In this document: piece by piece, positions 2,144-24,192 of the stretch
How the letters are laid out: every line of letters begins with the position of its first letter
Position numbering within the stretch: position 1 is the stretch's first letter
Position numbers and translations under genes: made by a program
Notes under the pieces: generated by a model
The model's input: only the letters and a program-made list of their open reading frames with translations
Database searches by the model: none
What the model was told of the DNA's origin: nothing
Source of the DNA: a virus
Reading direction: 5' to 3' (one strand)
Virus record (IMG/VR): IMGVR_UViG_3300042261_002409
Span: 1 to 24,192 of that record
Length of the DNA stretch: 24,192 nt

Positions 2144-4843
2144 TCAGCCCGCCACACACACGATCTCACACCGGTCCGGCTGCCCGCCGGCCGGGCAGAG
2201 GGTGCGGTGGATCGACTCGATCACGCAGGGCTCGGCGGCCCAGCCGCCCGGCAGCCGCGCCGCCGTGATCCCCAGCGTGTCGCACGGCTCCAGGTGCAGC
2301 GTGGGCAGGCCAAAGCACGCCACGTGCGCCCGATCGCGCACGTCCTGGTGGTGCGCCAGCAGCTTGGCCGCCACCGCGGCCGCCGCCGTGGCATCCTGGA
2401 GGAAATCGTTCTCCAGGATACACGTGTTGACCGTCCGATACCGGGTCTGCGACGCCGCGTCCGCGGCCTGCACGACGGCCCAGTAGGCGCCCGTCACCGG
2501 CCGCTTGGCGTAGAGCACCCACAGGTCGTTGACCAGGTCCGTCAGCCGCGTCCGGCCCACGCGGATTGGACCGCCTCCGGACTCTGGCCCCAGGACGTCG
2601 GCCGCCCCCGGCCCCTCGTTGATCGTCATCGCCGGCGCCGCGGCCAGCGGCAGGACGTACAGCTTCCACGTCCCGGCCTGGTCGAGGAAAATCCGGCTCG
2701 CCGTGCTGGTGGCCAGCCGATAGAGCAGCTCGCTCGAATCCATCGCGCCCGTCAGGGCCCAGTCGGCCCGGATCCCGGCCGCCGCGCAGGCCGCGCGCGC
2801 GGCGGCCCACGTGGGCGCGTCCAGCGCGGTCGGCGCCAGCCCCAGATAGGCGGCGTGGCACAGCAGCAGCCGCGCCTGGTCCGCCGGGTTTGTCACGATG
2901 GCGCTCGGCGACCCGGTGTAGGTCCCGCTCGCGTCATCCTGCCATCCCCGACCGTCCGCCGTGATCACGCGGCCGATGGCCACTTCGCCGCCGCTCACCA
3001 CCACGTCGGTCGTCCGGCTGGTGCTGACGGCGGTGGACCCGCCCAGGTTCGCCATGCTGGTCGTCGTGGCCCCCACCAGGCTGCCCATGCTCGCGGCCGT
3101 GGCGCCGGTCAGGCTGACCATGCTGGTCGCCGTCGCGCCGGTCAGCGCGGCCATGGCCGCGGCCGTGCTGCCCGACAGGCTCGCCATACTGGTCGTCGTG
3201 GCCCCGCTGGCCGAGGCGGAGATGCCCGCCGCGGCGTCGGCGGTGCTCGCCACGACGGCCGTCACATCCCGCTCGATCATGGCGACCATCGCCGAGGTCA
3301 CCTGCGCGCCGAGTGCGATGGTGTAGGATGTCCCGGGGCTGGTGTCCGTGCCGAAGGCGTCCGTTGTGCCGCTGGCGATATCGTTGGCCGAGATCGAGCA
3401 GATCACGGTGGTGTCCCGTTTGATCTTCACGGTCTGATCGCCGGCCCCCGAGGTATTGATGCTGGTCACCCGCATGTGGAATGAGGCCGTCGTCCCGCTC
3501 TTCGGCGACGCGGCGAACGTCAGCGTCGTCGTCGCGCTCGAGAGGGTCGTCGGCACCGTCGGGCTGCTCGGGTACTCGTGCACCCCCTTGTCCGCATCGT
3601 GGTCGTGACTCCCGGTGCCCATGCTGTGGCCGTGCTCGGCCGTCGTGCTGATGCTCCCGGGGCTCTGCTCACTGCTCACGCCGATGCTCCCGGGGCTCTG
3701 CTCGCCGGTCGTCGTAATCGACCCCGGGCCCTGCTCGCCGGTCGTTGAGATCACGCCGGGGCTCTGCTCGGTCCCGGTGGTGATCGCGCCCGGCGTCTGC
3801 TCGCCCGTCACCGTCGACGTGTGGACCGGCTGTTGCGTGACCGTGGCCACGGCCTGGCGCGTCGGTCGCGCCGTGAAGTGAATCAGGGTCGGCCCCGACA
3901 GGTCCACGCTGTACGCGCCGGCGTCCTGCCGCACGCCGTCCACGAAGACGGCGTCGATGGCCTGGCAGGCGTGCCGCGCCCACTCCCAGGTGTACTGCGC
4001 CCGGACCTCCCAGCAATAGGCCCCCTGTGGGTGCGCGGCCGCCGTGGTGCCGCCCGTGCCCCGCGTGCACCCCGTCAGGGCTAGCGTCGTCTTGCCGGTA
4101 TAGGTGACGCGCTCGGCCTCGACCTGCACCGTCCCACTGGCGGGAAACAGCGCCGCCAGACCCAGGTCCGACAGCGGCAGCGTGGCCTGGCCCGCCGTCA
4201 CGGCCGCGGCCAGCGCGTCCGCGGCGCCGGCGTCCACGGCCAGCGCCTGCAGGCCGAACACGGCGCCGAACACCTCGTTCCGCACGGCGCCGATGGCGTC
4301 CGGATCTGCGTGCGGGTACAGGGTCGCCGTGACCCGGCTGCCCAGCACCCGGTGCATCCGGGTCGCCCGCAGCGCCACCAGGTCCGGCCGTGCCGGCTGG
4401 CCCTCGTCGAGCAGCTCGAGTGTGAACGTCTGATCATCGTAGGCCCCCTCCTCGGGGAGGAGCCCCACGCCGCAGAACACGGGCAGCGCGTCGTCCCAGC
4501 GCATATTGACCGCGCCCTGGCGGATCTCGATGGCCACGTTGTCGAACGTCTCCGTCGCCAGCAGATCCGAAAAGCGCGCGCCCGTGGCGTCCGGCGTGTT
4601 CGCGATCATCAGCGTCCCGCTGTTCCGGCTGACGGCCCCCCAGCGGTCCATGCCCTGCGACAGCGTCAGCCCCTGCAGCAGCAGCTCGCGGTACGCCTGC
4701 CCGCCGTAGACGCCCTGCCGGGTCGCCAGATACTGCGTCCCGGCCGCCCCGGTCAGCGCGATCTGCGCCAGCAGCACCGGACGGTTGGGCGTCGTCAGCC
4801 CGCCGTCGGCCATGGCCGCGAAGGCCGCGCTCCGCGTCTGCAC
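2144..4843 (-). CDS. Tail hub / host-specificity J-like protein with two internal repeat arrays
   Basis: This 899-residue protein begins with GTG at 4843, which shares one base with the tape-measure stop and has GGACGGGG six bases upstream; an ATG at 4813 is the alternative. Three parts are visible. Residues 1 to about 340 resemble a distal-tail or baseplate-hub N-terminal region. The middle carries five 11-residue units of the form TGEQSPGSITT (346-400), a His-rich stretch (404-415), a beta-rich region, and five more 11-residue units of the form TGATATSMVSL (546-600). From about 615 it resembles the J/hub family, with NPADQARLLL, a D-TWAAARAACAAAGI helix and a SELLYRLATSTASRIFLDQ segment. 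Such proteins sit at the tip of the tail tube and contact the host. The repeats look like an insertion into an otherwise ordinary hub. Confidence 0.75.
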   Translation of the reverse strand: MQTRSAAFAAMADGGLTTPNRPVLLAQIALTGAAGTQYLATRQGVYGGQAYRELLLQGLTLSQGMDRWGAVSRNSGTLMIANTPDATGARFSDLLATETFDNVAIEIRQGAVNMRWDDALPVFCGVGLLPEEGAYDDQTFTLELLDEGQPARPDLVALRATRMHRVLGSRVTATLYPHADPDAIGAVRNEVFGAVFGLQALAVDAGAADALAAAVTAGQATLPLSDLGLAALFPASGTVQVEAERVTYTGKTTLALTGCTRGTGGTTAAAHPQGAYCWEVRAQYTWEWARHACQAIDAVFVDGVRQDAGAYSVDLSGPTLIHFTARPTRQAVATVTQQPVHTSTVTGEQTPGAITTGTEQSPGVISTTGEQGPGSITTTGEQSPGSIGVSSEQSPGSISTTAEHGHSMGTGSHDHDADKGVHEYPSSPTVPTTLSSATTTLTFAASPKSGTTASFHMRVTSINTSGAGDQTVKIKRDTTVICSISANDIASGTTDAFGTDTSPGTSYTIALGAQVTSAMVAMIERDVTAVVASTADAAAGISASASGATTTSMASLSGSTAAAMAALTGATATSMVSLTGATAASMGSLVGATTTSMANLGGSTAVSTSRTTDVVVSGGEVAIGRVITADGRGWQDDASGTYTGSPSAIVTNPADQARLLLCHAAYLGLAPTALDAPTWAAARAACAAAGIRADWALTGAMDSSELLYRLATSTASRIFLDQAGTWKLYVLPLAAAPAMTINEGPGAADVLGPESGGGPIRVGRTRLTDLVNDLWVLYAKRPVTGAYWAVVQAADAASQTRYRTVNTCILENDFLQDATAAAAVAAKLLAHHQDVRDRAHVACFGLPTLHLEPCDTLGITAARLPGGWAAEPCVIESIHRTLCPAGGQPDRCEIVCVAG
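3044..3208 (-). repeat. Tandem array 2 in tail hub gene: five 33-bp units
   Basis: Five consecutive 33-base units encode variants of an 11-residue unit, (S/T/V)G(A/S)T-x-x-(S/A)M-x-x-L. A degenerate sixth unit (GGSTAVSTSRT) occupies 3011-3043. The array is in frame. Confidence 0.85.
3644..3808 (-). repeat. Tandem array 1 in tail hub gene: five 33-bp units
   Basis: Five consecutive 33-base units encode variants of TGEQSPGSITT. The Glu-Gln and Pro-Gly cores are invariant across copies, and a sixth unit breaks down at TAEH. The array is in frame and begins exactly 600 bases upstream, in gene direction, of array 2. Confidence 0.9.
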
Positions 4844-7602
4844 TATAGCGCCCCGTCCCGCTGGGCGCGGCGCAGATCCGGCACCAGCGCGCGCACCAGC
4901 TCCGCGCTCCCCACCTGCAGCACGATCACCGCCGGCTGCGCGGCGCCGGGTCCGGCAAACAACTGCCGCCCGCGCATCACCGCCTCCAGGATCCGCGCCT
5001 GCTGCTCGGGGTTCGCGATCAGCTCCCCGGCGTGCGCCCGGACCATCTGCGGCGCCCCGATCGGTCCCGGGATATAGCCGCCGTCGGCGTAGCCCTCGCC
5101 GCCACCCGCGCCCCCGTCCCCGCCGCCCGGCACGATGGTCGTCACACCGGTCACGCCGGGCACGTAGCCGGGCGCGCTCGTGTCCACCGTGGTATCCCAC
5201 GAGCCCAGGTCGTTGCTGCCCGTGTCCCACACCTCCTTCTGCGGATTCGCCGGGGTCGCGGGCGCGCTCGGGGCAGACGGCGCCTGCGCCCGGCTCAGCG
5301 CGTCCGCCAGCCGCTGGGCCTCGGTCGCCGCCGTGGCCAGTTGCCCGCCCATCGTCCGCGTGGCCGCGACGGCCTGCGTCAGCCCCTCCACCATGCCCTT
5401 CGCGCTGGCGGCCGACGCCTGGGCCGCGTCGCGCTGCTCCTGCTGGGCCTGGAGGATCTTCTTCCCGACGTCCTCCACCTGCCGCGTCAGCGACCGCACG
5501 TCCAGCCGCTCCGCCGCGGCCGCGGCCTGGCCGATCTGCCCGGTCGAGCCAGAGAATCCCAGCGCCCACCACTCCTTGCTGCCGATCCCGCCGGGCTGCG
5601 TCTCCCAGGCGGCCTTGAACGCCTGCGACCACTGCCCCGATTGCGTGGAGCGCCACGCCGAGGGGCTGATGTCGAACGCGTCCGCCGTGGCCTTGCCGGC
5701 GTCCGTCGCCGCCTGGCCCGCCTTCGCCGCCTCCAACGCCAGCGCCCCGAACGCCTGCTGGGCCGCCTTCAGGGCGGCCACCTGCTCCTCGCCCGACAGG
5801 CTCACGGCCTCGCGCAGGTGCTCGTGCGCCCGCCGCTCGCGATCCGCCAGCGCCGCCGCCGGGCTCATGCCGGCCTGCCGGATCTGGGCGACCAGATCCG
5901 CGGTGCCGCTCGTCGTCTCGCGCATCTGCCGGTCGAGCTGCCGCACCTGGTCGCCGTACCGCTGGTAATCGCTGGTCGCCTTGCTCAGGGCGCTCGTCAG
6001 CGCCGCGCCGTAGGCCTGCAGGTTCGCCGCCTTTAGGCTGTGCGTCTCCTGGTCCAGCGCCCGCACCTGCGTCGCGTACTCCCGCTCGGACAGGTACCCC
6101 TGCGCCAGCATCCCCTGCAGGGCGGCGGTCTGCTGCGTGGTGAACCGCTCCTGGTCCGCCAGCTTGGCGGCGTTGACCGTCTGCGTGGCCGCCAGGCTCG
6201 CCTGGAGGCTCTGATACTCGATCGCTTGCGTCCGGGTCGCCCGCTCGGCTTCCGACCCCGTCAGCTCCGCGATCGCCGTGGCGCTCGCCGCCTCGCGCAG
6301 CGCGGCCTCCATCTGCGCCACCTGCTCCAGCCCCGCCCGCCGCCGCTCCAGCGTCTCCTTGGCGATCGCCGTCTGCGTCTCCAGCTCTTCCCGCGCCCGC
6401 TTCTGCTGCGCGTCGCGGATCGTCCGGGCCAGGGCTTCCTGCGTCGTCCGCTCCTCGTCCAGGATCAGCGCCTTCCGCTCCGCCGCGCGCTGTTGAATCA
6501 GCGGCCCCTCGATGCCCTCGGTCTTGTTGGCCGCGGCCTTGCGGCGCTCCTCCGTCTCCTGGAGCTCGGACTGCAGCAGCTTCTCGTTGACGCTGCGCAT
6601 CAGCGCCGTGTGCATCTGGTAGCCGACACCCTGGATTTCGTCCGGCCCGGCCAGCCCTCGCGAGATCCGATCGCTCAGCGTGGCCTGCAGGCGGCCGGAA
6701 GCCGCCTGGGCCAGCTGCCCGCGGGTCTGGGACGCCGAGACCTCCCCCTGGTGTTCCACCGAGCGTGTCAGCGCGCGCTCGAGCTCCCACTTGGCCGCGG
6801 CATCCTGCGCGGCCGCGGTCGGCAGGCGGACGGCCCGCCGGCCGACGTCCCCCCAGAACTCCATGGTCCGCCCAAGCCAGGAGTTCTCGACGCGCCGGGC
6901 GCGCGCCTCCTCGTTGCGCGCGATCTCCCCGAGGCCCTGGGTGATGCTGCCCGCATCCAGGGACACCGACAATTGCCGGATGGCCGCGAACCGCTGCGCG
7001 CTCTTCTCCAGCTCCTCCAGGCGCATCAGCGAGGAGGCCGCGAAGGCCCCGATGGCGATGAGCCCGCCGACCAACCCCTTGGTGGCCAGGCTCGCCCCGG
7101 CCAGGCCGCCCTGCAGTCGCATCGTCCCGAGCGCGAGTTGGGTGACCAGCGGGTTGCTCTGGCCCATCGCCATGGACATCGGCCCCAGCACCCCGCTCAC
7201 CATCTCGGTGGACACCATCCGGGCCGTCGCGCTCGCGTCCTGCCGCACCTGGGCGGCCGCCTGCTTGTACGGGTTGACCGTCAGGTGCGCCGTCCGCGCG
7301 ATGCTGCCCAGGGCCTCCTGCAGCGTCTGCTTGTGCGCGACCACCGCGGCCGTGGCCTTCGCGATCGGGGCCGGGTCCATGATCGTGGACTCGGAGAAGT
7401 ACCCGCCCGCGCCGCTGGATGCGCCATACGGGCCGGACGTCATGGACCGCTGGACGCTGGCCATGGTCGCGGCCACCGCCTGGGCCGACGTCTTGGCCTG
7501 CCCCTCCAGCCGCTGCAGCGCGGTCGTGGACCGGTCCACCAGCGTCTGGACCAGCCCCTCGCCCTTCGTCGTGATCTCGTACTGCAGCATCACCGTCGGC
7601 AT
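4843..7602 (-). CDS. Tail tape measure protein
   Basis: This 919-residue protein is the longest of the tail module and directly follows the frameshifting chaperone, the standard place for a tape measure. It sets tail length and occupies the tube lumen. It is almost entirely Ala/Gln/Glu/Arg-rich helix with long coiled-coil stretches (about 195-660), a hydrophobic segment around 167-193 (LAGASLATKGLVGG into LIAIGAFAASSLM) of the kind thought to insert in the host membrane, and a Pro/Ala/Gly-rich tail near the C-terminus. The ATG at 7602 lies 47 bases beyond the chaperone stop at 7650. No lysozyme or peptidase domain was noticed. The stop overlaps the GTG of the hub gene (TAGTG). Confidence 0.88.
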   Translation of the reverse strand: MPTVMLQYEITTKGEGLVQTLVDRSTTALQRLEGQAKTSAQAVAATMASVQRSMTSGPYGASSGAGGYFSESTIMDPAPIAKATAAVVAHKQTLQEALGSIARTAHLTVNPYKQAAAQVRQDASATARMVSTEMVSGVLGPMSMAMGQSNPLVTQLALGTMRLQGGLAGASLATKGLVGGLIAIGAFAASSLMRLEELEKSAQRFAAIRQLSVSLDAGSITQGLGEIARNEEARARRVENSWLGRTMEFWGDVGRRAVRLPTAAAQDAAAKWELERALTRSVEHQGEVSASQTRGQLAQAASGRLQATLSDRISRGLAGPDEIQGVGYQMHTALMRSVNEKLLQSELQETEERRKAAANKTEGIEGPLIQQRAAERKALILDEERTTQEALARTIRDAQQKRAREELETQTAIAKETLERRRAGLEQVAQMEAALREAASATAIAELTGSEAERATRTQAIEYQSLQASLAATQTVNAAKLADQERFTTQQTAALQGMLAQGYLSEREYATQVRALDQETHSLKAANLQAYGAALTSALSKATSDYQRYGDQVRQLDRQMRETTSGTADLVAQIRQAGMSPAAALADRERRAHEHLREAVSLSGEEQVAALKAAQQAFGALALEAAKAGQAATDAGKATADAFDISPSAWRSTQSGQWSQAFKAAWETQPGGIGSKEWWALGFSGSTGQIGQAAAAAERLDVRSLTRQVEDVGKKILQAQQEQRDAAQASAASAKGMVEGLTQAVAATRTMGGQLATAATEAQRLADALSRAQAPSAPSAPATPANPQKEVWDTGSNDLGSWDTTVDTSAPGYVPGVTGVTTIVPGGGDGGAGGGEGYADGGYIPGPIGAPQMVRAHAGELIANPEQQARILEAVMRGRQLFAGPGAAQPAVIVLQVGSAELVRALVPDLRRAQRDGAL

Positions 7603-7649: not shown

Positions 7650-7955
7650 CTACCGGTCCCGCCGCCGCGCCAGGTCTGGGTGCAGCCGATCCATCCGCGC
7701 CCGCGCCCGGGCCTGCGGATCCCCGCCTCGGTCCGCCGGGTGCAGCTCCTGCATCACCTCATGGATCACGACCAGCCGCGCGATCGTGGCCAGCGTCGCC
7801 GCGTCGCCGGTCACGATCGCCAGGGCCAGCCCCGGCCGCGCGTCCACCAGGTCGCTCGCCAGCAGCCGGTAGGCGCGCAGGGCCGCCCGCTCCTCCGCCG
7901 TCAGGCGGCGGGTGTCTGGCGCTCCTCCGGAGCCGGCGGCGCGGAGGACGCGGGA
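7650..7955 (-). CDS. T extension of tail assembly chaperone (reached by -1 frameshift)
   Basis: This 101-residue segment has no convincing start of its own. It joins the upstream chaperone by a -1 shift at 7955-7961, giving a fusion of about 226 residues that continues SRVLRAAG after the shared Asn-Phe. The extension is helical (TAEERAALRAYRLLASDLVD, then a TIARLVVIHEVMQELHPAD helix) and basic at the C-terminus (ARARMDRLHPDLARRRDR). In lambda G/GT and its analogues the T part binds tail tube subunits while the G part coats the tape measure. The reading frame also runs upstream to 8108, but that portion is only a shadow of the chaperone gene. Confidence 0.85.
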   Translation of the reverse strand, partial: SRVLRAAGSGGAPDTRRLTAEERAALRAYRLLASDLVDARPGLALAIVTGDAATLATIARLVVIHEVMQELHPADRGGDPQARARARMDRLHPDLARRRDR

Positions 7956-8329
7956 AAATTTCTGAGTGCCAGCGCCATCTCGCCCTGCGCGTTGATGCCC
8001 TTGAAGGCTAGGTCGATCAGCTGCGTCTTGATGGGCCGGGGCACCAGGTACTTGTTCTGCCGGCTGCACGCCGCCGGCCTCCCGTCCAGCACGAACCCCC
8101 GGGGCCACTCCAGGATGATGTAATCCAGGCTGTCCTTGTCCACCTCGACCTCGTCGACCGTGGTGCGCTCGATGCCGTCCGCCCCCTTCACCGTCGTGGT
8201 GTGCCGGGCCCGGATGGCGTCGTAGGTCTCCGTGGGCATCCGCCGGTAGATCACCTCTATCGTCGGGGACTTCTCATCGTCCACGAGCCGGAATCGCTCG
8301 TTTGGGCTGATCAGCTCAATCGGTCCCAT
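7901..8329 (-). CDS. Tail assembly chaperone (G-like)
   Basis: This 142-residue protein lies between tail tube and tape measure, where siphovirus-type phages encode the chaperone that holds the tape measure during tail assembly. The N-terminal part is beta-rich (ERFRLVDDEKSPTIEVIYRR), followed by a conserved-looking LEWPRGFVLDGRPAACSRQN segment. The last 17 residues (Pro/Ala-rich) are present only in the unshifted product. The ATG at 8329 has AGGAGC just upstream. An A-AAT-TTT heptamer in the correct register near the 3' end allows -1 frameshifting into a second frame. Confidence 0.85.
   Translation of the reverse strand: MGPIELISPNERFRLVDDEKSPTIEVIYRRMPTETYDAIRARHTTTVKGADGIERTTVDEVEVDKDSLDYIILEWPRGFVLDGRPAACSRQNKYLVPRPIKTQLIDLAFKGINAQGEMALALRNFPASSAPPAPEERQTPAA
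7955..7961 (-). promoter_or_regulatory. Programmed -1 frameshift slippery site
   Basis: On the coding strand the heptamer is AAATTTT, read in frame as A-AAT-TTT, a perfect X-XXY-YYZ arrangement. It lies in codons 123-125 of the chaperone, 54 bases before its stop, and the -1 frame stays open for 101 further codons. Confidence 0.85.
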
Positions 8330-8352
8330 CGCATGCTCCTGTGCGGCGTCGA

Positions 8353-8376
8353 ACGCGTCGGACCGGTCCGACGCGT
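8353..8376. repeat. 24-bp perfect palindrome between tail tube and chaperone genes
   Basis: The arms ACGCGTCGGACC and GGTCCGACGCGT abut with no spacer. It lies 18 bases beyond the tail tube stop and 23 bases before the chaperone start. It belongs to the GTCCGACCGG repeat style also seen at 16818. It could act as a transcript-end or processing hairpin, or a protein-binding site. Confidence 0.85.
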
Positions 8377-8394
8377 CCGATCGGCCGCGCCGAT

Positions 8395-9486
8395 TTAGGC
8401 CAGGTACGCCGCCTGGTCGTCGTACACGTACAGGATCACCACCGGGTTCGTCCCGTCGTCGTGCAGGTCGGCCTCGAACTTGATCGTCAGGCCGTCCTCC
8501 CGCACCCCGCGCCCGATCGGCTTCAGGTGCAGCCGCGGCAAAATCAGGTCGAAGCCGTACTTGTAGGCCCCCGTCGCCGCGATGATGGTGCCGGAATCCA
8601 CCTCGATCTCCAGCGCCGCGGCCACCTGGCCGCTGTAGTAGGCGCGCTCCGCCGCCAGCGTCGCGGCGTTCATGTCCAGCTCGACCATGATGGAGCCGCC
8701 CCGGCCCGGGCCGTGGTCCAGGTGAGTCCGCACCAGCCCGCCGCCGGGCGCGTAGCCCTTGTCCAGCAGGGGCCGGTTGTCCCACGAGAAGCTGAGGTCG
8801 TTCAGGCGGTTCGCCGCTCGGAAGTCGTCTGGCGTGGCGCTCGAGATGTTCTCGGCCCCCTGCGTGGGCGCCGCGTCGACGCTGACGTCCGCCCCGGTCT
8901 CCAGCCAGCAGTAGGTGTCCTGCCAGCGCAGGGGGAGCTGCGCCGTCAGTTTGGCCGGGAAGGCGTCGGCGGCCGCGGCACGCGACCCGCTGCCCACCAG
9001 GCTCGCCTCCACCGCCCAGAAATCCCCGTTGCGGTACAGCCGGAACGCGCTGGCCACGACCCCGGTGTACTTCGTCTGCTCGCCGCCCACCTTCTCCTGG
9101 ACGCCCACCGACGGCAGCGCCGCCGTGGCCGCCACCGGGACCAGCTTGTGGCGGTAGGCGGTCAGCGAGGCGTCCTGCACGTTGGCCGCCACGCTCCCCA
9201 GCGCCAGCGCGGCCAGGCCGCCCAGGTGCGTGGGCCGGACGGCGTCCTCGCCGTAGGCCAGGCGGACGTCCTGGCGAATGATCTGCTGCGCCGTCGGGTA
9301 CTGCGAGCCGTGCACCGTCCCCGCGTCCGACCGCAGCACGTCCGGCCAGTCCGCGATCGCGTTCTGGCCAAAGTCGAAGAGCTGGTGCGCGGCCCCCAGC
9401 GTCCAGGCCGCCGGCCCCACGTCGTAGGTCACCTCCTTGTCCCCGAACGACACCATTAATTGGTCCAGCACCCGACACGGTCGCAT
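8395..9486 (-). CDS. Tail tube protein (major tail protein)
   Basis: This 363-residue protein begins at the ATG at 9486, preceded by AAGGAGG at ideal spacing, the strongest ribosome-binding site in the window and expected for an abundant structural protein. It is beta-rich throughout, with segments such as VSFGDKEVTYDVGPAAWTLG near the N-terminus and LEIEVDSGTIIAATGAYKYG and LTIKFEADLHDD near the C-terminus, resembling the larger tail tube proteins of siphovirus-like phages. It precedes the frameshifting chaperone and tape measure. There is no sheath gene next to it, which argues for a non-contractile tail. The first nine codons upstream of the ATG lack an independent ribosome-binding site. 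Confidence 0.78.
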   Translation of the reverse strand: MRPCRVLDQLMVSFGDKEVTYDVGPAAWTLGAAHQLFDFGQNAIADWPDVLRSDAGTVHGSQYPTAQQIIRQDVRLAYGEDAVRPTHLGGLAALALGSVAANVQDASLTAYRHKLVPVAATAALPSVGVQEKVGGEQTKYTGVVASAFRLYRNGDFWAVEASLVGSGSRAAAADAFPAKLTAQLPLRWQDTYCWLETGADVSVDAAPTQGAENISSATPDDFRAANRLNDLSFSWDNRPLLDKGYAPGGGLVRTHLDHGPGRGGSIMVELDMNAATLAAERAYYSGQVAAALEIEVDSGTIIAATGAYKYGFDLILPRLHLKPIGRGVREDGLTIKFEADLHDDGTNPVVILYVYDDQAAYLA

Positions 9487-9509
9487 CACCCACCTCCTTG
9501 TGGCACCGC

Positions 9510-9553
9510 GCACAGCGCATAGGGCTTAGGCCTCCGTGCCCTGTGCGCTGTGC
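9510..9553. repeat. Long imperfect hairpin of TGCCCT-type repeats
   Basis: Arms 9510-9525 (GCACAGCGCATAGGGC) and 9538-9553 pair over 16 positions with one mismatch, leaving a 12-base loop. The element sits immediately after the DUF1834 gene stop and just upstream of the strong tail tube ribosome-binding site. No T-run follows on the minus strand, so a simple intrinsic terminator is not shown. Confidence 0.8.
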
Positions 9554-10026: not shown

Positions 10027-10042
10027 GTCGCCGCGCTCCGGT
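10027..10042 (-). promoter_or_regulatory. Recurrent ribosome-binding-site leader, copy 1
   Basis: On the coding strand ACCGGAGCGCGGCGAC directly precedes the ATG. The same leader, with small changes, precedes the genes starting at 10720 and 11270. GGAG is the likely Shine-Dalgarno core. Confidence 0.7.
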
Positions 10043-10113
10043 CCGCAGTCCGAAGTCTTCAGTCCGCAGTCTTCGATCTGATGGCCTCGGACCGTGGACC
10101 TCGGACTGTGGAC
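10040..10113. repeat. GGACCTCGG/GTCCGAAG-type repeat tract
   Basis: The whole gap between the gpG-like and DUF1834 genes is filled by degenerate copies of GTCCGAAG, CAGTCCGCAGTC and GGACCTCGGAC. No promoter-like motif is obvious in it. Confidence 0.7.
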
Positions 10114-10114
10114 A

Positions 10115-10720
10115 TCACCCCACCAGCTTCCGCAGGTACTCCTCCAGAAGCTGCCACCACGTCCGCTCGTCCTCGGCCTGCACCACAAGGAACGGCCGGG
10201 GCGGGATATGCATCTGCCGCGTGTGCGGCCCCACCCGGCAGAATCCCTGCGCGATGATGCCCTTCCGCTGGACGACCTTGCCTTTGTTCGGTCCGCGCTT
10301 CACGGTGTGGGCATAGATCCCGTGCACATCGCGGGCCCGCACGCGCCGCAGGTACGGCCCGATCTGCGCCGGCCCCTGGAACCCCTCCTGGTGCACGTGG
10401 GCATACGCCGTGTTCGTCCCCACCCGCACCAGCCGCGGCGCCACGGCCTCGACCTGGATCGAGTTCTTCAGCGTCCCTCGATTGATCAGCGTCTTGGGCG
10501 ACCGCGTCGCCGGCCGGTGCCGGGCGGTGAACCCGGCGATCTTCCGGCTCGGGATCCACCGCGGCCGGCCGCCCAGCTCGAAGTTCCGCTGGACCGACGC
10601 CACCAGGTGCGCGCCGAACGCCCGCAGCGGGACCGACAGATCCCGCACCCCCGCCGCGATCGCCTTGGCCCCGGCCCGCGCCGCCTCCGCCCCCGTCAGC
10701 TTCACCCGCATCTCGATCAT
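10115..10720 (-). CDS. gpG-like virion morphogenesis / tail completion protein
   Basis: This 201-residue basic protein matches the Mu gpG-type virion morphogenesis family (tail completion, PF05069-like). It has an N-terminal helix (AARAGAKAIAAGVRDLSVPL), FELGGRPRWIPSRK, an RGTLKNSIQVEAV strand, a VGTNTAYAHVHQEGFQG segment and a C-terminal IPPRPFLVVQAEDERTWW, the usual order in this family. A middle stretch (about residues 120-175) is longer than in Mu. In Mu the gene lies just after the MuF gene, whereas here it sits between DUF1320 and DUF1834. The ATG at 10720 has the duplicated GGAG leader. Confidence 0.82.
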   Translation of the reverse strand: MIEMRVKLTGAEAARAGAKAIAAGVRDLSVPLRAFGAHLVASVQRNFELGGRPRWIPSRKIAGFTARHRPATRSPKTLINRGTLKNSIQVEAVAPRLVRVGTNTAYAHVHQEGFQGPAQIGPYLRRVRARDVHGIYAHTVKRGPNKGKVVQRKGIIAQGFCRVGPHTRQMHIPPRPFLVVQAEDERTWWQLLEEYLRKLVG

Positions 10721-10737
10721 CGTCGCTGCGCTCCGGT
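10721..10737 (-). promoter_or_regulatory. Recurrent ribosome-binding-site leader, copy 2
   Basis: ACCGGAGCGCAGCGACG directly precedes the ATG of the gpG-like gene and is identical over 17 bases to the leader at 11271-11287. Confidence 0.8.
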
Positions 10738-10811
10738 CCCCGGTCCGAGGTCCCCGGTCTTCGGTCTCCCGACCCCGACCCCCGGACCTCGGACCTCGGA
10801 CCTCGGACCTA
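10735..10811. repeat. GGACCTCGG-type repeat tract with inverted arms
   Basis: Four or more copies of GGTCCGAGG/GGACCTCGG fill the gap between DUF1320 and the gpG-like gene. Arms 10742-10753 and 10791-10802 are perfect 12-base inverted complements, so the transcript could form a hairpin. The tract touches the DUF1320 stop codon. Confidence 0.8.
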
Positions 10812-11270
10812 GTACCCGTCCAGCGTCCCCACCTCGCCCGTGCTGCTCCGGCCGATGGTGGCGATCCGATCCGCGGCCGTCCGGCTCGACTGCGCCGCCC
10901 CGCCACCGTCGGTCGCCACCGCCCCGCTCGTCGCGTCCGGCAGGACCATCTCGCCCCGGGCCAGGCGGCGCAGCGTGGCGATCGCCTCCTCGTAATCCTT
11001 CTGCCGCCGCTCGTTGGCCAGGCCCCGGTGGCCGTACAGATTCCAGGCGGCGATCGCCGCGGCCAGCTTCGTCAGCAGCGCGGGCACCGGCGCCACGGGG
11101 ATCGTGTACCGGGCCCCCAGGTACCCGTCGATCTCGGCATCCGCGTCCGCGATGGCCTTCGCCACGACGGCGGGATCCGCCACGCCGTCCCCGTTGTCGT
11201 CGGAAAGCCGCACCAGCTCCGCGCTGCTCAGCCCGCTATTCGTGATGTCCGCCTGCGTGCAGTAGCTCAT
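10809..11270 (-). CDS. Mu gp36-like head-completion protein (DUF1320)
   Basis: This 153-residue protein matches the DUF1320/Mu gp36 family. It starts YCTQADITNSGLSSAELVRL, followed by the acidic DDNGDGVADPAVVAKAIADA, then DAEIDGYLGARYTIPVAPVP and a helix containing AAAIAAWNLYGHRG, the family's signature order. Such proteins complete the head at the portal vertex. The ATG at 11270 is chosen because the GGAG-containing leader precedes it and DUF1320 proteins normally begin close to this motif. The C-terminal 40 residues (Gly/Ser/Ala-rich) are variable. Confidence 0.88.
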   Translation of the reverse strand: MSYCTQADITNSGLSSAELVRLSDDNGDGVADPAVVAKAIADADAEIDGYLGARYTIPVAPVPALLTKLAAAIAAWNLYGHRGLANERRQKDYEEAIATLRRLARGEMVLPDATSGAVATDGGGAAQSSRTAADRIATIGRSSTGEVGTLDGY

Positions 11271-11347: not shown

Positions 11348-11386
11348 GATCCGTCGGGGGGGCGGGAGGCGGGGCGATGGGGTCTG

Positions 11387-11421
11387 CCCCCTCGCCCCTC
11401 ACCCCTCACGCCTCACGCCCT
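11387..11421. repeat. Tandem heptamer tract (CCCCTCA type)
   Basis: About four to five heptamers of the form CCCCTCA/CGCCTCA run up to the capsid stop codon. The period is the same as in the TGCCCT tracts elsewhere, but the sequence differs. Confidence 0.7.
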
Positions 11422-12415
11422 ACGTGAGGATCGTGTCCTTCCACATGAACCCGCCGTAGGTCCCGGTAGCCAGGATGTGCGTCTCCTCCGCGACCTCGTA
11501 GACGTCCTGGTGCCGGCTCGCCTCGCGCCAGGTCGTCGTCCGTCGCACCTGCCCGCCCTCCTCCGGCGAATAGCGCAGGCGCGCCTGGCACAGCGCCATG
11601 GGCGTCTTGAGGCCCACGGTCGCCGGGCGGTAGAACAGGAAGGCCGAGCCCTTGCCCGCGTTGGCCTCCCAGATGTTCACGCTGGTGAAGTCGCTCGCGT
11701 CCTTCTTCTCGGCCGCGCTCGAGTAGATCGCCCCCGCGATCAGCACCTCCTCGAGCTGGAACAGCGCGGCCAGCATGGGGGCCGTCACGATCGCCCGCTC
11801 CACGTACTGGATCTTGGCCTGGACCGCGCTGAGCTGCTTGACCTTCGAGTAGGTGTTACCCGACAGCACCAGCACGTTCGGCCGGCGGCCGATGGCGGAC
11901 CGGATCGTCTCGATCCGCGTCTCGACGTCATCGATGAACGTGTTGGTGGCATCGTTCGGCGCCCACAGACCGGCCGCGTCCTCGCCCCCGGCGCCGGCGG
12001 CGGACCAGTTGGTCGCGTTGACCAGCGCGAACACCCGGCGCTCCTTGCTGAGGTCGATCTTGTCGCCGCACAGATCCAAGGCGTCCTGGTCCGGCTTCAG
12101 CGGCGGCGCCATCTGCGACCGGGACAGGCGCCGGTCCTCGTCCGTCACCTCGGCGGCGAACGCGAACTCCTTCGTGCTGATGGTCGCCCAGTCGATCGGG
12201 TACCCCCCGCGCTTGGCCTCGCCCCCGGGGCCGCGCATCTCGGCCTCGTCCCGGAACCAGGCGCCGCGCGGGTAGATCGCGATCTTGGCCTTCGGGTCCT
12301 CGATGTCGAGGATCTTCGCCACCCGGTCGCCGACGTACTCGGCGTTCCGGTAGGCGATGCTGACGTTCTGCAGCGGCCCCGTCACCAACAGGGACCGGAT
12401 ATCCGGCTGTCCCAT
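11420..12415 (-). CDS. Major capsid protein (HK97-fold type)
   Basis: This 331-residue protein occupies the major-capsid position after scaffold and decoration genes. The N-terminal third has the arm-and-strand pattern seen in capsid proteins (SIAYRNAEYVGDRVAKILDI, then KIAIYPRGAWFRDEAEMRGPG). It continues with a TKEFAFAAEVTDEDRRL strand-turn, a spine helix around DDVETRIETIRSAIGRRPNV and a C-terminal beta region (HQDVYEVAEETHILATGTYG). It does not read like Mu gpT, so the capsid may have been exchanged relative to Mu. The ATG at 12415 has AAAGGAG about seven bases upstream, a strong site fitting an abundant protein. The fold assignment is by pattern and position. Confidence 0.8.
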   Translation of the reverse strand: MGQPDIRSLLVTGPLQNVSIAYRNAEYVGDRVAKILDIEDPKAKIAIYPRGAWFRDEAEMRGPGGEAKRGGYPIDWATISTKEFAFAAEVTDEDRRLSRSQMAPPLKPDQDALDLCGDKIDLSKERRVFALVNATNWSAAGAGGEDAAGLWAPNDATNTFIDDVETRIETIRSAIGRRPNVLVLSGNTYSKVKQLSAVQAKIQYVERAIVTAPMLAALFQLEEVLIAGAIYSSAAEKKDASDFTSVNIWEANAGKGSAFLFYRPATVGLKTPMALCQARLRYSPEEGGQVRRTTTWREASRHQDVYEVAEETHILATGTYGGFMWKDTILT

Positions 12416-13540: not shown

Positions 13541-13580
13541 CCGTCCGGACCGATGCCCTCGGACCGTGGACCTCGGACTG
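13541..13580. repeat. GGACCTCGG-type repeat tract
   Basis: Degenerate copies (GTCCGGACCGA, CGGACCGTGGACCTCGGAC) lie between the protease/scaffold stop and the decoration protein's ribosome-binding site. Confidence 0.65.
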
Positions 13581-14849: not shown

Positions 14850-14861
14850 CGTCCCCTCCGC

Positions 14862-14893
14862 GCCCTGCGCCCTGTGCCCCGTGCCCTGTGCCG
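14862..14893. repeat. TGCCCT-type heptamer tract upstream of protease gene
   Basis: About four heptamers (CGCCCTG, TGCCCCG, TGCCCTG) occupy part of the 159-base gap between the MuF and protease genes. A fragment resembling CGAAGGGCC follows at 14895. Confidence 0.7.
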
Positions 14894-14945
14894 CTCGAAG
14901 GGCCTTGACAGCCCCGCCCGCCGGCGCTAGGCTCTGATTCTCCAG

Positions 14946-15008: not shown

Positions 15009-16721
15009 TCACGCCCTGACATATTGCAGATCCCCTTTGCGCTTGCTGTTCAACTCGCCCGGTTTCGACTGGAACGCATCCCACAGCAGCCCGAACGGCC
15101 CGTCCTCAGCGATTACCACGACATTCTCGCGCCCGGCGACACCGGCATAGACGCCGATGTACCGCTTCCGGGGACGGATCTGCCCCGATCCATCCACCAT
15201 GTTCGTCAACCACACCTCATATGGGTCTTCTACCGTCGGGCGCAGGTACGCCAGGTACTGCTCGCGGCCATCCGTATGCCGGGCGATGTGGGCGAGGGCT
15301 TTCAGGTCCACCGCGACCGGCTCCCCCAGCGGGTCACGGAGGAACCCACGCCGCATGCGTGTGGGAATGCCAAGGCGGCGGCGGTAATCCGCCTCCATCT
15401 CGTCCAGCGCCCCGTCGCGGCTGAGTCCGTGTGCCCCATAGTCGCCGAAGCTCGGCGTCTTGTCCGGTGCGCGCACACGATCCCCCGGCGGGATCTGGGA
15501 TTCGCTGGGGCGAGTGAGGCTCGCATACGTCGCCGCCTGCTGCGCCGCCGTCGTCCATCGCTGCCCAAGCTCTGGCTGCTGCACCAGTGCTCGCAGCGGT
15601 TCTCCGGGGCGCCCAAACCCCGGCTCCGGATCCGGCGGCGGCTCGTCCGTCGAGACGCGGAGGCCCCGCGCCCGCAATTCGGCCGCGGTGAGCGGCTCCA
15701 CGTGGCAGCGGCAGCCGAAGCCGACCGGGGGATACCAGGTCTGCCAGGCGGGATCGTCGGCCCGGTAGACCGTGTTGTGCATCGCGGCGTGCTCGGGTCG
15801 GGTCCGGTTATCCATCACCGCCACATAGCGCCAGTAGGGGAGGAGCGCTGCGATCTCGGGGTCGGCCATCTCGCGGTAGCGCGCCCCCGCATAGGCCTGC
15901 TGTGTATTGACGCGATAGATCGTCTCGATCCGCGCCGGGGTCAGGCCCCACACCTGCTGTTGCTCCGCCAGCCCCTGGATCTCGCGCGTGAAGTCGCGCA
16001 GCGGCGTCCCCTCCGTCAGCGACCGCTCCACCTGTCCCTGCACCGCCCCCAGGAAGTCGGCCTTGGTGATGCCGGCCAGGTAGAACGCCTCCTTGGCGGC
16101 GTACTGCGCCTTGAAGAAGTCCGTCGCGTCCCGGAATGGCGCCCCCTCCCCTGCCTGACCGGCAGGCGGGCGCGGGACCTCGACGTCCAAGAACTGGTGC
16201 GAGGTCCCTGCCTGCGCCGCGCGCGTCGCGGCAGGCGGGCGCGGTCCGAAGTCCGAAGTCCGAGACCTCGGACCGGGGACCGGGGACAGGAGACCGCGGA
16301 CGCTCTGCGCGCCCAGAACGTCCGCCGCCGCCAGCGCCTCCCCCAGGTGCTCGCCCAGCGCGCGGTGCGAGGCCGTCGCGTACAGCCCCGGCAGCGCATC
16401 CCGGATCTCGGCCAGGCTCGACGCCCCGTCGACGAGCGTTAACAGGGCCTTCACCCACGGTTCCACGAGTCGCGGCGCGTGCTCCACGGCCGCGTCGACC
16501 ACTCGGTCCACCGCGTCCTGGGCGACCTCGGCGGCCCCGCCCTCGGCGTAGGCGTTCCCACCCCCCGCGCCCTGTGCCCTGTGCACTGTGCGCTCTGCCC
16601 CGAGCACGCACACCACCGCCTCCAGCACCGCGGTCCGCCGGGCCTGGTCCGATGTCCCCGGTCCCCGGTCCGCAGACCTCGGACATCGGACCTCGGACCT
16701 CGGACCCATGCTCGTGATCAC
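15009..16721 (-). CDS. MuF head morphogenesis protein with C-terminal PBECR2-like nuclease/toxin domain
   Basis: This 570-residue protein has three parts. Residues about 68-150 (RLVEPWVKALLTLVDGASSL, RDALPGLYATASHRALGEHL) resemble the C-terminal helical domain of DUF935 portals rather than anything MuF-like. Residues about 200-360 are the MuF domain: PFRDATDFFKAQYAAKEAF, ARIETIYRVNTQQAYAGARY, YVAVMDNRTRPEHAAMHN, and the Cys/His end VGFGCRCHVEPLT. Residues about 460-570 resemble the PBECR2 (phage barnase-EndoU-colicin-RelE-like) domain: KALAHIARHTDGREQYLAYL, then EDPYEVWLTNM and KRYIGVYAGVAG. MuF proteins are minor head proteins, and attached toxin-like domains are thought to be injected with the DNA. 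Two repeat-derived stretches (residues 5-60, 152-190) interrupt the N-terminal part. The GTG start at 16721 overlaps the portal stop as GTGA; an ATG at 16709 is the alternative. Confidence 0.85.
   Translation of the reverse strand: MITSMGPRSEVRCPRSADRGPGTSDQARRTAVLEAVVCVLGAERTVHRAQGAGGGNAYAEGGAAEVAQDAVDRVVDAAVEHAPRLVEPWVKALLTLVDGASSLAEIRDALPGLYATASHRALGEHLGEALAAADVLGAQSVRGLLSPVPGPRSRTSDFGPRPPAATRAAQAGTSHQFLDVEVPRPPAGQAGEGAPFRDATDFFKAQYAAKEAFYLAGITKADFLGAVQGQVERSLTEGTPLRDFTREIQGLAEQQQVWGLTPARIETIYRVNTQQAYAGARYREMADPEIAALLPYWRYVAVMDNRTRPEHAAMHNTVYRADDPAWQTWYPPVGFGCRCHVEPLTAAELRARGLRVSTDEPPPDPEPGFGRPGEPLRALVQQPELGQRWTTAAQQAATYASLTRPSESQIPPGDRVRAPDKTPSFGDYGAHGLSRDGALDEMEADYRRRLGIPTRMRRGFLRDPLGEPVAVDLKALAHIARHTDGREQYLAYLRPTVEDPYEVWLTNMVDGSGQIRPRKRYIGVYAGVAGRENVVVIAEDGPFGLLWDAFQSKPGELNSKRKGDLQYVRA
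16150..16170. repeat. CTGCCTG/GGCAGGC palindrome inside MuF gene
   Basis: CCTGCCTGACCGGCAGGCGGG reads as a near palindrome. It is in frame and translates as PPAGQAG. Confidence 0.65.
16205..16289. repeat. Composite of palindrome and GGTCCGAAG-type repeats inside MuF gene
   Basis: A CTGCCTGC...GGCAGGCGG element is followed directly by GGTCCGAAGTCCGAAGTCCG and then GGACCGGGGACC copies. The stretch stays in frame between the portal-like and MuF parts of the protein. Confidence 0.75.
16565..16601. repeat. TGCCCT-type heptamer tract in MuF N-terminus
   Basis: Four or five heptamers (CGCCCTG, TGCCCTG, TGCACTG, TGCGCTC) code for residues around 42-53 of the MuF protein. Confidence 0.7.
16646..16692. 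repeat. Inverted GGTCCGATGTCC repeat in MuF N-terminus
   Basis: Arms 16646-16657 and 16681-16692 are perfect 12-base complements. Further GGACCTCGG copies run to 16706, close to the MuF start. Confidence 0.8.
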
Positions 16722-19980: not shown

Positions 19981-20040
19981 CCCCCGTGCCCTCTGCCCTT
20001 TGCCCTATGCCCTATGCCCCGTGCCCTGTGCCCTATGCGC
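19981..20040. repeat. TGCCCT heptamer tandem array between terminase genes
   Basis: Eight consecutive heptamers of the form (A/G/C/T)TGCCC(T/C) run almost without spacing. The stop codon of the small terminase gene (TAG) is provided by one of the units. This is the clearest example of the repeat in the window. Confidence 0.9.
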
Positions 20041-20692
20041 TCGCGCCCTTCACCTTCGCCATCAGCCGGTCGAAGTGCCGGTTCAGCACCTCGGCGGCCG
20101 CTGGATCCGTCTGGACCAGTGTCTCAACCATGCCCTTGAAGAACTCCAGGAAGAGCCCCGGCTTGTCGATGGCCAGCTTCCGCTCCCGCTCCAGCTCGAG
20201 CCGCGCCCTGTCCAGGGCCAGCTTCTCGTCCTGGAGGGCCTTCTTGTCCCGCTCGAGGCCCAGCTTCTCCTTCGCCTGCTGTGATCGGTCATGGGCGATC
20301 AGCGTCCGGAACACCTCGACGGGCTCGGCCTCCCCCATGCGCGTCAGGGCCGCCAGGCGGGCGTGCTCGATGATCCCGCTCAGGTCCCCGGCCGCCTCGG
20401 GCCCGCGGTCCAGGAAGTACTTCGCGAGCGCGATCCCCTCCTCGTGCGCCTGCGCCTCGATCCGAACCTGGGACTCGTAGAAGGCCTGGTAATCCCCGAT
20501 CGAGGTGTCATTCCAGACGATCCCCCAGCGACGCTGAAGCTCCTCGAGGAGCGCCCTGGCCGTGGGGCCGACCCCTTGGCTCCGCAGCTCGCACTGCGTG
20601 TTGAGCCACGCGACGCCCTCGGGGGGCAGCCCGGCGATCCCGGCGAAGCGCCGGATCGCGGGCCGCGGCTCTGCCGTGCGGCGCCGGCCCAT
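20033..20692 (-). CDS. Terminase small subunit (DUF3486, Mu gp27-like)
   Basis: This 219-residue protein matches DUF3486, the Mu gp27-type small terminase that recognises the DNA to be packaged. The N-terminus is a basic helix-turn-helix-like region (RFAGIAGLPPEGVAWLNTQ, then a GPTARALLEELQRRWGI stretch). Long helices follow (KEKLGLERDKKALQDEKLA, RARLELERERKLAID) as a coiled coil, then KPGLFLEFFKGMVETL and a C-terminal helix. The ATG at 20692 overlaps the previous stop by one base. The gene ends within a TGCCCT-type repeat that supplies its TAG stop. Confidence 0.85.
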   Translation of the reverse strand: MGRRRTAEPRPAIRRFAGIAGLPPEGVAWLNTQCELRSQGVGPTARALLEELQRRWGIVWNDTSIGDYQAFYESQVRIEAQAHEEGIALAKYFLDRGPEAAGDLSGIIEHARLAALTRMGEAEPVEVFRTLIAHDRSQQAKEKLGLERDKKALQDEKLALDRARLELERERKLAIDKPGLFLEFFKGMVETLVQTDPAAAEVLNRHFDRLMAKVKGASA

Positions 20693-21970: not shown

Positions 21971-22040
21971 GGCGCATAGGGCATAGGGCCCGGGGTTCTC
22001 TGCCCTGTGCTCTCCGCCCCGTGCTCCATGCCCTGTGCCC
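21971..22040. repeat. Inverted heptamer-repeat cluster downstream of holin gene
   Basis: GCATAGGGC copies at 21974-21989 face GCCCTGTGC copies at 22002-22037, so the cluster can form a hairpin (for example 21981-21989 with 22002-22010, one mismatch). It fills much of the 188-base gap between holin and the inner-spanin candidate. No other gene is visible in this gap. Confidence 0.75.
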
Positions 22041-23661: not shown

Positions 23662-24192
23662 CTATGCCTCGCGTGGCGTCCCGACCTCGCCCGCCTGCCC
23701 GGCGGGCAGGGACCGCGGACCGTCGACCTCGGACCGCGCGACGGCGCGCCGCCGCGCCTTCACCGCCTTCAGCGCCTGGATGCACTTGCTGGTGTCCGCC
23801 GCGCTCTGCGGCCACGGGTGCCCACAGGCCGTCAGGTAGATCCCTTCTTGCTCCCGCCGGTCCAGGTGCAGCTCCCGCTCCGCGATCACCTTCAAGAGCT
23901 GCATCTGCGGCAAGGTCGGCCGCAGCGACCCGTCCAGCCGCCGCTCCGCCGCCCCCGCCCGCCGCCGGTCCGTCTTCGGCCTCCCCCGCGCCCCGTGCCC
24001 TGTGCCCTGTGCCCGCGGAATGTCCGCCAGGATCCGCGTGAGCTCCTCCAGGGTGCAGGTGGTCAGCCCGAACTCCTCCACCAGCGTTCGCCCCACCACC
24101 TCGGACGCCCGCGCGCGCATCCCGTCCAGGTCCCACCCCGCCTCGAACGCCCGCAGCACGATCCGCTGCCGCAGCTTCCCCTCGGGGGTCAT
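23662..24192 (-). CDS. Possible GemA/gp16-like regulatory protein, at window edge
   Basis: This 176-residue reading frame begins with the ATG in the last three bases of the window and may extend beyond it. It has two segments of the kind found in Mu gp16/GemA-type regulators: RTLVEEFGLTTCTLEELTRI near residue 34, and LRPTLPQMQLLKVIAERELH, followed later by CIQALKAVKARRRA. The linker (residues 60-70) is encoded by a TGCCCT-type heptamer tract and the last 25 residues by GGACCTCGG and CCTGCCC repeats; the TAG stop also lies in a heptamer. The GemA assignment is weak and rests on the segment pattern and on gp16 preceding late genes in Mu. Confidence 0.4.
   Translation of the reverse strand: MTPEGKLRQRIVLRAFEAGWDLDGMRARASEVVGRTLVEEFGLTTCTLEELTRILADIPRAQGTGHGARGRPKTDRRRAGAAERRLDGSLRPTLPQMQLLKVIAERELHLDRREQEGIYLTACGHPWPQSAADTSKCIQALKAVKARRRAVARSEVDGPRSLPAGQAGEVGTPREA
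23691..23740. repeat. Composite CCTGCCCGG palindrome and GGACCTCGG repeats
   Basis: CTGCCCGGCGGGCAG is followed by GGACCGCGGACC and GACCTCGGACC. It encodes the C-terminus of the gp16-like protein. Confidence 0.7.
23991..24014. repeat. TGCCCT-type heptamer tract inside gp16-like gene
   Basis: Three and a half heptamers (CGTGCCC, TGTGCCC, TGTGCCC) are in frame and encode AQGTGHGARG between the two helical segments. Confidence 0.8.

Follow-up and report, generated by a model that had tools for sequence, protein, structure and literature searches.

RESULTS

The Two Reading Frames and Their Neighbors

Positions 7650 to 8329 of the DNA analyzed here (the window, a virus record of 24,192 bases that consists of one metagenomic contig with 72% GC) contain two overlapping reading frames, and the question that they raise is whether the second is expressed as an extension of the first by programmed -1 ribosomal frameshifting in a tail assembly chaperone gene, as a sequence-only reading had proposed, or is to be explained in another way. 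The structural genes of the window are on the minus strand. The G frame (frame 0; 7901-8329, minus strand), a predicted tail assembly chaperone gene on the basis of the homologues and Foldseek matches described below, begins with the ATG at 8329 and ends with the TGA at 7903-7901 after 142 codons. The T part (7650-7955, minus strand) lies in the -1 frame, which is open after the slip for 101 codons up to the TAG at 7652-7650, and the predicted GT fusion has 226 residues; the length of the open frame and the product sizes of 142 and 226 residues given by the earlier reading are confirmed.

The pair is located between a gene of 372 codons in the tail-tube position (8395-9513, minus strand), which has a weak profile match, and a long gene of 919 codons in the tape-measure position directly downstream (4843-7602, minus strand, with its start at 7602). 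It should be noted that these two genes of the window are placed by position and that no family fitting either of them was found by sequence in Pfam or PHROG. A near-perfect palindrome (8349-8380), with arms of 16 nt, no loop, and 94% complementarity, is located in the intergenic space between the tube-position gene and G.

Coding Character of the T Frame

At 72% GC, an open -1 frame is of little significance when taken alone, and codon usage was therefore examined. Past the G stop, the -1 frame has a score of +0.76 per codon, compared with a mean of +0.80 for the known genes of this phage, whereas the scores of the remaining two frames are -0.53 and -1.01; none of 764 off-frame windows on the same strand reaches the score of the T frame. 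The GC contents of the three codon positions in the T frame are 0.88, 0.52, and 0.94. On codon usage alone, the change of frame from 0 to -1 is best placed within a plateau that extends from approximately 7969 to 7903 and includes the heptamer described below. Near the junction the T frame has no ATG, GTG, or TTG, the first such codon past the heptamer being the GTG at 7847.

The Slippery Heptamer and the Downstream Hairpin

The sequence AAATTTT (7961-7955, minus strand) is located near the end of G, 19 codons before the stop. Its first A is the third base of codon 123, so that codons 123 to 125 (AGA, AAT, and TTT) are divided as A-AAT-TTT in the X XXY YYZ slip register; the coordinates and the register of the earlier reading are in agreement with this. 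The heptamer occurs once on the whole minus strand of the window, and the codons that compose it are rare in this phage: in twelve of its genes, AAT accounts for 11 of 70 Asn codons (the other 59 being AAC), TTT for 6 of 118 Phe codons (112 being TTC), and AGA for none of 4770 codons. Given the codon usage of the phage, the probability that Arg-Asn-Phe would be written as NNA-AAT-TTT is about 6e-4, and when G was re-drawn synonymously with the phage's own codon usage, 1.2% of the re-drawings had an in-register heptamer with AAA or TTT as YYY among the final 25 codons. The single copy on the strand and the adjacency of three rare codons indicate that the site is not a product of chance. A_AAU_UUU falls within the H_HH.U_UU.Y class, which a systematic study in Escherichia coli places among the most efficient heptamers of bacteria (PMC4066793). 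No clear Shine-Dalgarno-like stimulator was found 8-14 nt upstream of the heptamer.

A hairpin of 33 nt (7919-7951, minus strand) with a predicted energy of -19.5 kcal/mol begins at the fourth base past the heptamer. By the hairpin rule of the E. coli study, the stem begins 4-10 nt past the motif with a G-C pair, in addition to which it has three or more other pairs (PMC4066793). The energy is the fifth lowest among 647 windows of the same size in the G-T region, but comparison with shuffled sequences past the heptamer gives z values of -1.70 for 63 nt, -0.59 for 50 nt, and +0.25 for 85 nt, a mixture that is to be expected at such a GC content. In absolute terms this is a strong hairpin, and the 50- and 85-nt z values are not unusual for GC-rich sequence; since the 85-nt fold is not unusual, the hairpin is described here as a candidate stimulator. 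Over the 20 sites of the group discussed below, the 50-nt z past the heptamer averages about -2.5, and hairpins in this location are a feature of the group. A search of Rfam gave only sub-threshold matches to microRNA and snoRNA families, which were taken as chance.

Relatives of the G-T Pair

Single-query searches with G, with the tube-position protein, and with the G alignment found no relatives, and related loci, about 95 in number, were gathered through the portal and capsid proteins. A profile search of the open reading frames in these loci identified two homologues of G, in L014 and L079, the former with a pairwise BLASTP E value of 3e-5 to the G of the window. In L014, an in-register A AAA AAG is followed by the G stop, and the T part, in the -1 frame, extends as far as the tape-measure gene. 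The L014 site has a run of ten A residues followed by G (12168-12178), which could allow transcriptional as well as ribosomal slippage. The heptamer of L079, A AAA AAC, is in register and overlaps the end of the G frame; the -1 frame opens exactly at this point. A separate T gene, with its own start, was looked for in these two loci; in L079, the T frame has no ATG, GTG, or TTG for 66 codons, until 5381, which excludes an ordinary separate T gene in this locus. In both L014 and L079 the gene upstream of the pair matches Phage_tube_2 and the long gene downstream matches tape-measure families, which supports the tube and tape-measure reading of the corresponding genes in the window.

Chaperone pairs that belong to other sequence types, but in which a heptamer likewise stands in register close to the G stop, were found in seventeen further capsid-relatives and one near-duplicate. 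The heptamers are mostly A AAA AAC but include C CCT TTT, C CCT TTG, and G GGA AAC. Conservation of the heptamer in relatives, which had been put forward as a means of checking the frameshift, therefore holds for the mechanism and the register but not for the letters, AAATTTT being unique to the window among the 20 sites examined. The layout scan also returned 39 further arrangements that a distance rule did not place beside a tape-measure gene; most of these look like chance overlaps, but those in L051, L078, L079, L094, and L095 look like tail-chaperone pairs that the rule missed. Conversely, a few arrangements, such as those in L018, L039, and L063, were placed beside the tape gene by the rule, yet are elsewhere in the genome and are probably due to chance.

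A Cys-rich stretch is present in T of L014, L079, L019, and L055, whereas the T part of the window has no cysteine. There is about an even chance that the window, L014, and L079 represent a family of tail chaperones for which Pfam and PHROGs have no sequence description, with heptamer letters that vary freely and a register that is kept, and that the T part of the window has lost a Cys-rich, probably zinc-binding, stretch that its relatives carry.

A different chaperone family, with a conserved T part in the -1 frame (GGDITRRDEILWGYT-like), was observed in L063 (17933-18576), L017 (13369-14114), L031 (3363-3982), L035 (5997-6631), and L039 (16738-17444). The junction in this family has no XXXYYYZ motif; where the frames appear to change there is a common NNT-GGR-TYG, which reads TGG in the -1 frame and is a possible non-canonical frameshift site.

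Predicted G and T Proteins

Neither G nor T of the window has a fitting match in Pfam or PHROG. The G of L079 has a weak match to two PHROG families of tail assembly chaperones, and comparison of the window G alignment with the G set of L055, L019, and L097, genes that have A AAA AAC and a T part in the -1 frame, gave an hhalign probability of 89% (E 2.6e-6). A model of G generated with AlphaFold2 from three sequences is of low confidence (pLDDT 56). When it was compared with a viral structure library by Foldseek, named chaperones were among the best matches, including the tape-measure chaperones of Salmonella phage Shivani and Vibrio phage JSF10 and the tail assembly chaperone of HHTV-2; the model also resembles FS-gp41, the gp41 frameshift product of phage Mu (E 4e-3). 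Sequence and fold searches of the PDB with G gave no match.

The earlier reading had ascribed a T-like helical domain to the -1 frame. The model of T is indeed all-helical, but it is of low confidence and supports this description weakly; a fold search with it found no structural match, and hhalign comparisons of the window T with other T sets gave weak similarities that are not significant (P 0.034).

DISCUSSION

The position of the locus, the register of the heptamer, the codon-usage switch, the candidate hairpin, the layout in the homologues, and the chaperone-like predicted fold of G together make it very probable that G and T are a tail assembly chaperone pair of the lambda G/GT type produced by -1 programmed ribosomal frameshifting. 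The central proposal of the sequence-only reading is thus supported, by sequence comparison and modeling. In phage lambda, where the ratio of G to GT is about 30:1, the tape-measure protein is bound by G and tube subunits by the T part, and G and GT are both released before the tail is completed (PMC5009743). The tail gene frameshift that is conserved in dsDNA phages (Xu, Hendrix, Duda 2004; PMC5009743) resembles the arrangement in the window in that the tube and tape-measure genes are separated by a pair of overlapping frames, the shift is -1, an XXXYYYZ heptamer is present in register toward the end of G, and T has no ordinary independent start. The window differs from lambda in its heptamer, A AAT TTT, in the candidate 3' hairpin, and in the lack of any detected similarity in sequence to known chaperone families. 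Its closest parallels are with the capsid-related uncultured phages (L079, L014, L019, L055, L028, L037, and others), in which the pair has the same location, a -1 overlap, an in-register heptamer, and usually a hairpin, but the heptamer is mostly A AAA AAC and is close to the G stop.

From the observed anatomy of the locus, the codon-usage switch, and the conserved layout and register, we infer that slippage takes place at the heptamer, how efficient it is, what part the hairpin has in it, and that the proteins act as chaperones, as follows. Most ribosomes would read G to the stop at 7901 and produce the protein of 142 residues. In a minority of them, the tRNAs for Asn and Phe, when paired with AAT and TTT, would slip back by one base, an event probably promoted by the hairpin 4 nt downstream, which may pause the ribosome; the slipped tRNAs would re-pair on AAA and TTT, and translation would continue in the T frame to give GT of 226 residues. 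By analogy with lambda, the G part may coat the tape-measure protein encoded by the next gene and the T part may recruit tail-tube subunits, and both G and GT would leave before tail completion.

Separate expression of T, by translational coupling from a start of its own inside or just after G, would account for the two frames without a shift. The T frame has CTG codons at 7904, as part of a CTGA that overlaps the G stop, and at 7880, with GGAGGAG sequences upstream, as well as the GTG at 7847. However, CTG is a poor start codon, initiation at 7847 would cut the first long helix predicted for T (residues 20-39 of the T model), and the T frame of L079, which opens at the heptamer, has no ATG, GTG, or TTG until far into the frame, so that this explanation is very unlikely. 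It is more improbable still that G and T are a single frame that was split by an insertion or deletion in sequencing or assembly. The window is a single metagenomic contig with no second copy, and codon usage locates the frame switch only to the interval 7969-7903, but L014, L079, and many further tail-chaperone pairs share the two-frame layout and have heptamers in register, and an indel arising by chance would not have set three rare codons in the slip register.

The two remaining explanations accept a change of frame but differ in its nature, and the likelihood of each is slight enough to be almost negligible. Slippage during transcription rather than translation is known at long homopolymers in other genes, and the ten-A run of the L014 site is of this kind; the site in the window is just A3-T4, and established rules require a longer run for slippage of RNA polymerase. 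A shift of -2, as in phage Mu, is suggested by the Mu-like head genes of the window, whose portal and F-like head proteins match Portal_Mu and Phage_Mu_F, and Mu itself uses -2 (PMC5009743). However, the frame that would be entered by a -2 shift in the window has noncoding codon usage throughout and an internal stop, and the coding frame is -1.

With -1 programmed frameshifting as the preferred explanation, the G-T pair is a well-supported but ordinary example of a kind known in many tailed phages, and it leaves the general picture of tail-chaperone frameshifting unchanged. It allows G and GT to be annotated in a highly diverged tail module with no family matches by sequence, as well as, from their location, the tube and tape-measure genes, and it adds an A AAT TTT site to a group in which the heptamer letters and the chaperone sequences change but the register, and usually a 3' hairpin, persist.

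Other Features of the Window and Its Relatives

The window contains degenerate repeats in tandem whose period is exactly 7 nt, with CGGACCT and GCCCTGT as examples of the unit; many are at or near gene junctions. They are located at approximately 10036-10115, 10717-10817, 11383-11425, 13546-13578, 14856-14894, 16557-16598, 16614-16721, 19981-20041, 21989-22040, and 23980-24018. With the threshold used, the window has seven arrays of period 7 and none of period 5, 6, or 8-11. Arrays of period 7, of differing sequence, are also carried by L003, L005, L010, L044, L055, L063, L066, and L095. Cyanobacteria are known to have heptanucleotide repeats.

The Mu F-like head protein of the window (15009-16721, minus strand) has a C-terminal PBECR2 domain (Pfam E 1.6e-17), a nuclease domain of the Barnase/EndoU/colicin/RelE-like type. 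Downstream of the tape-measure-position gene, a minus-strand open reading frame contains tandem repeats of 33 nt (3028-3206 and 3628-3809), each unit corresponding to 11 residues if the frame is coding.
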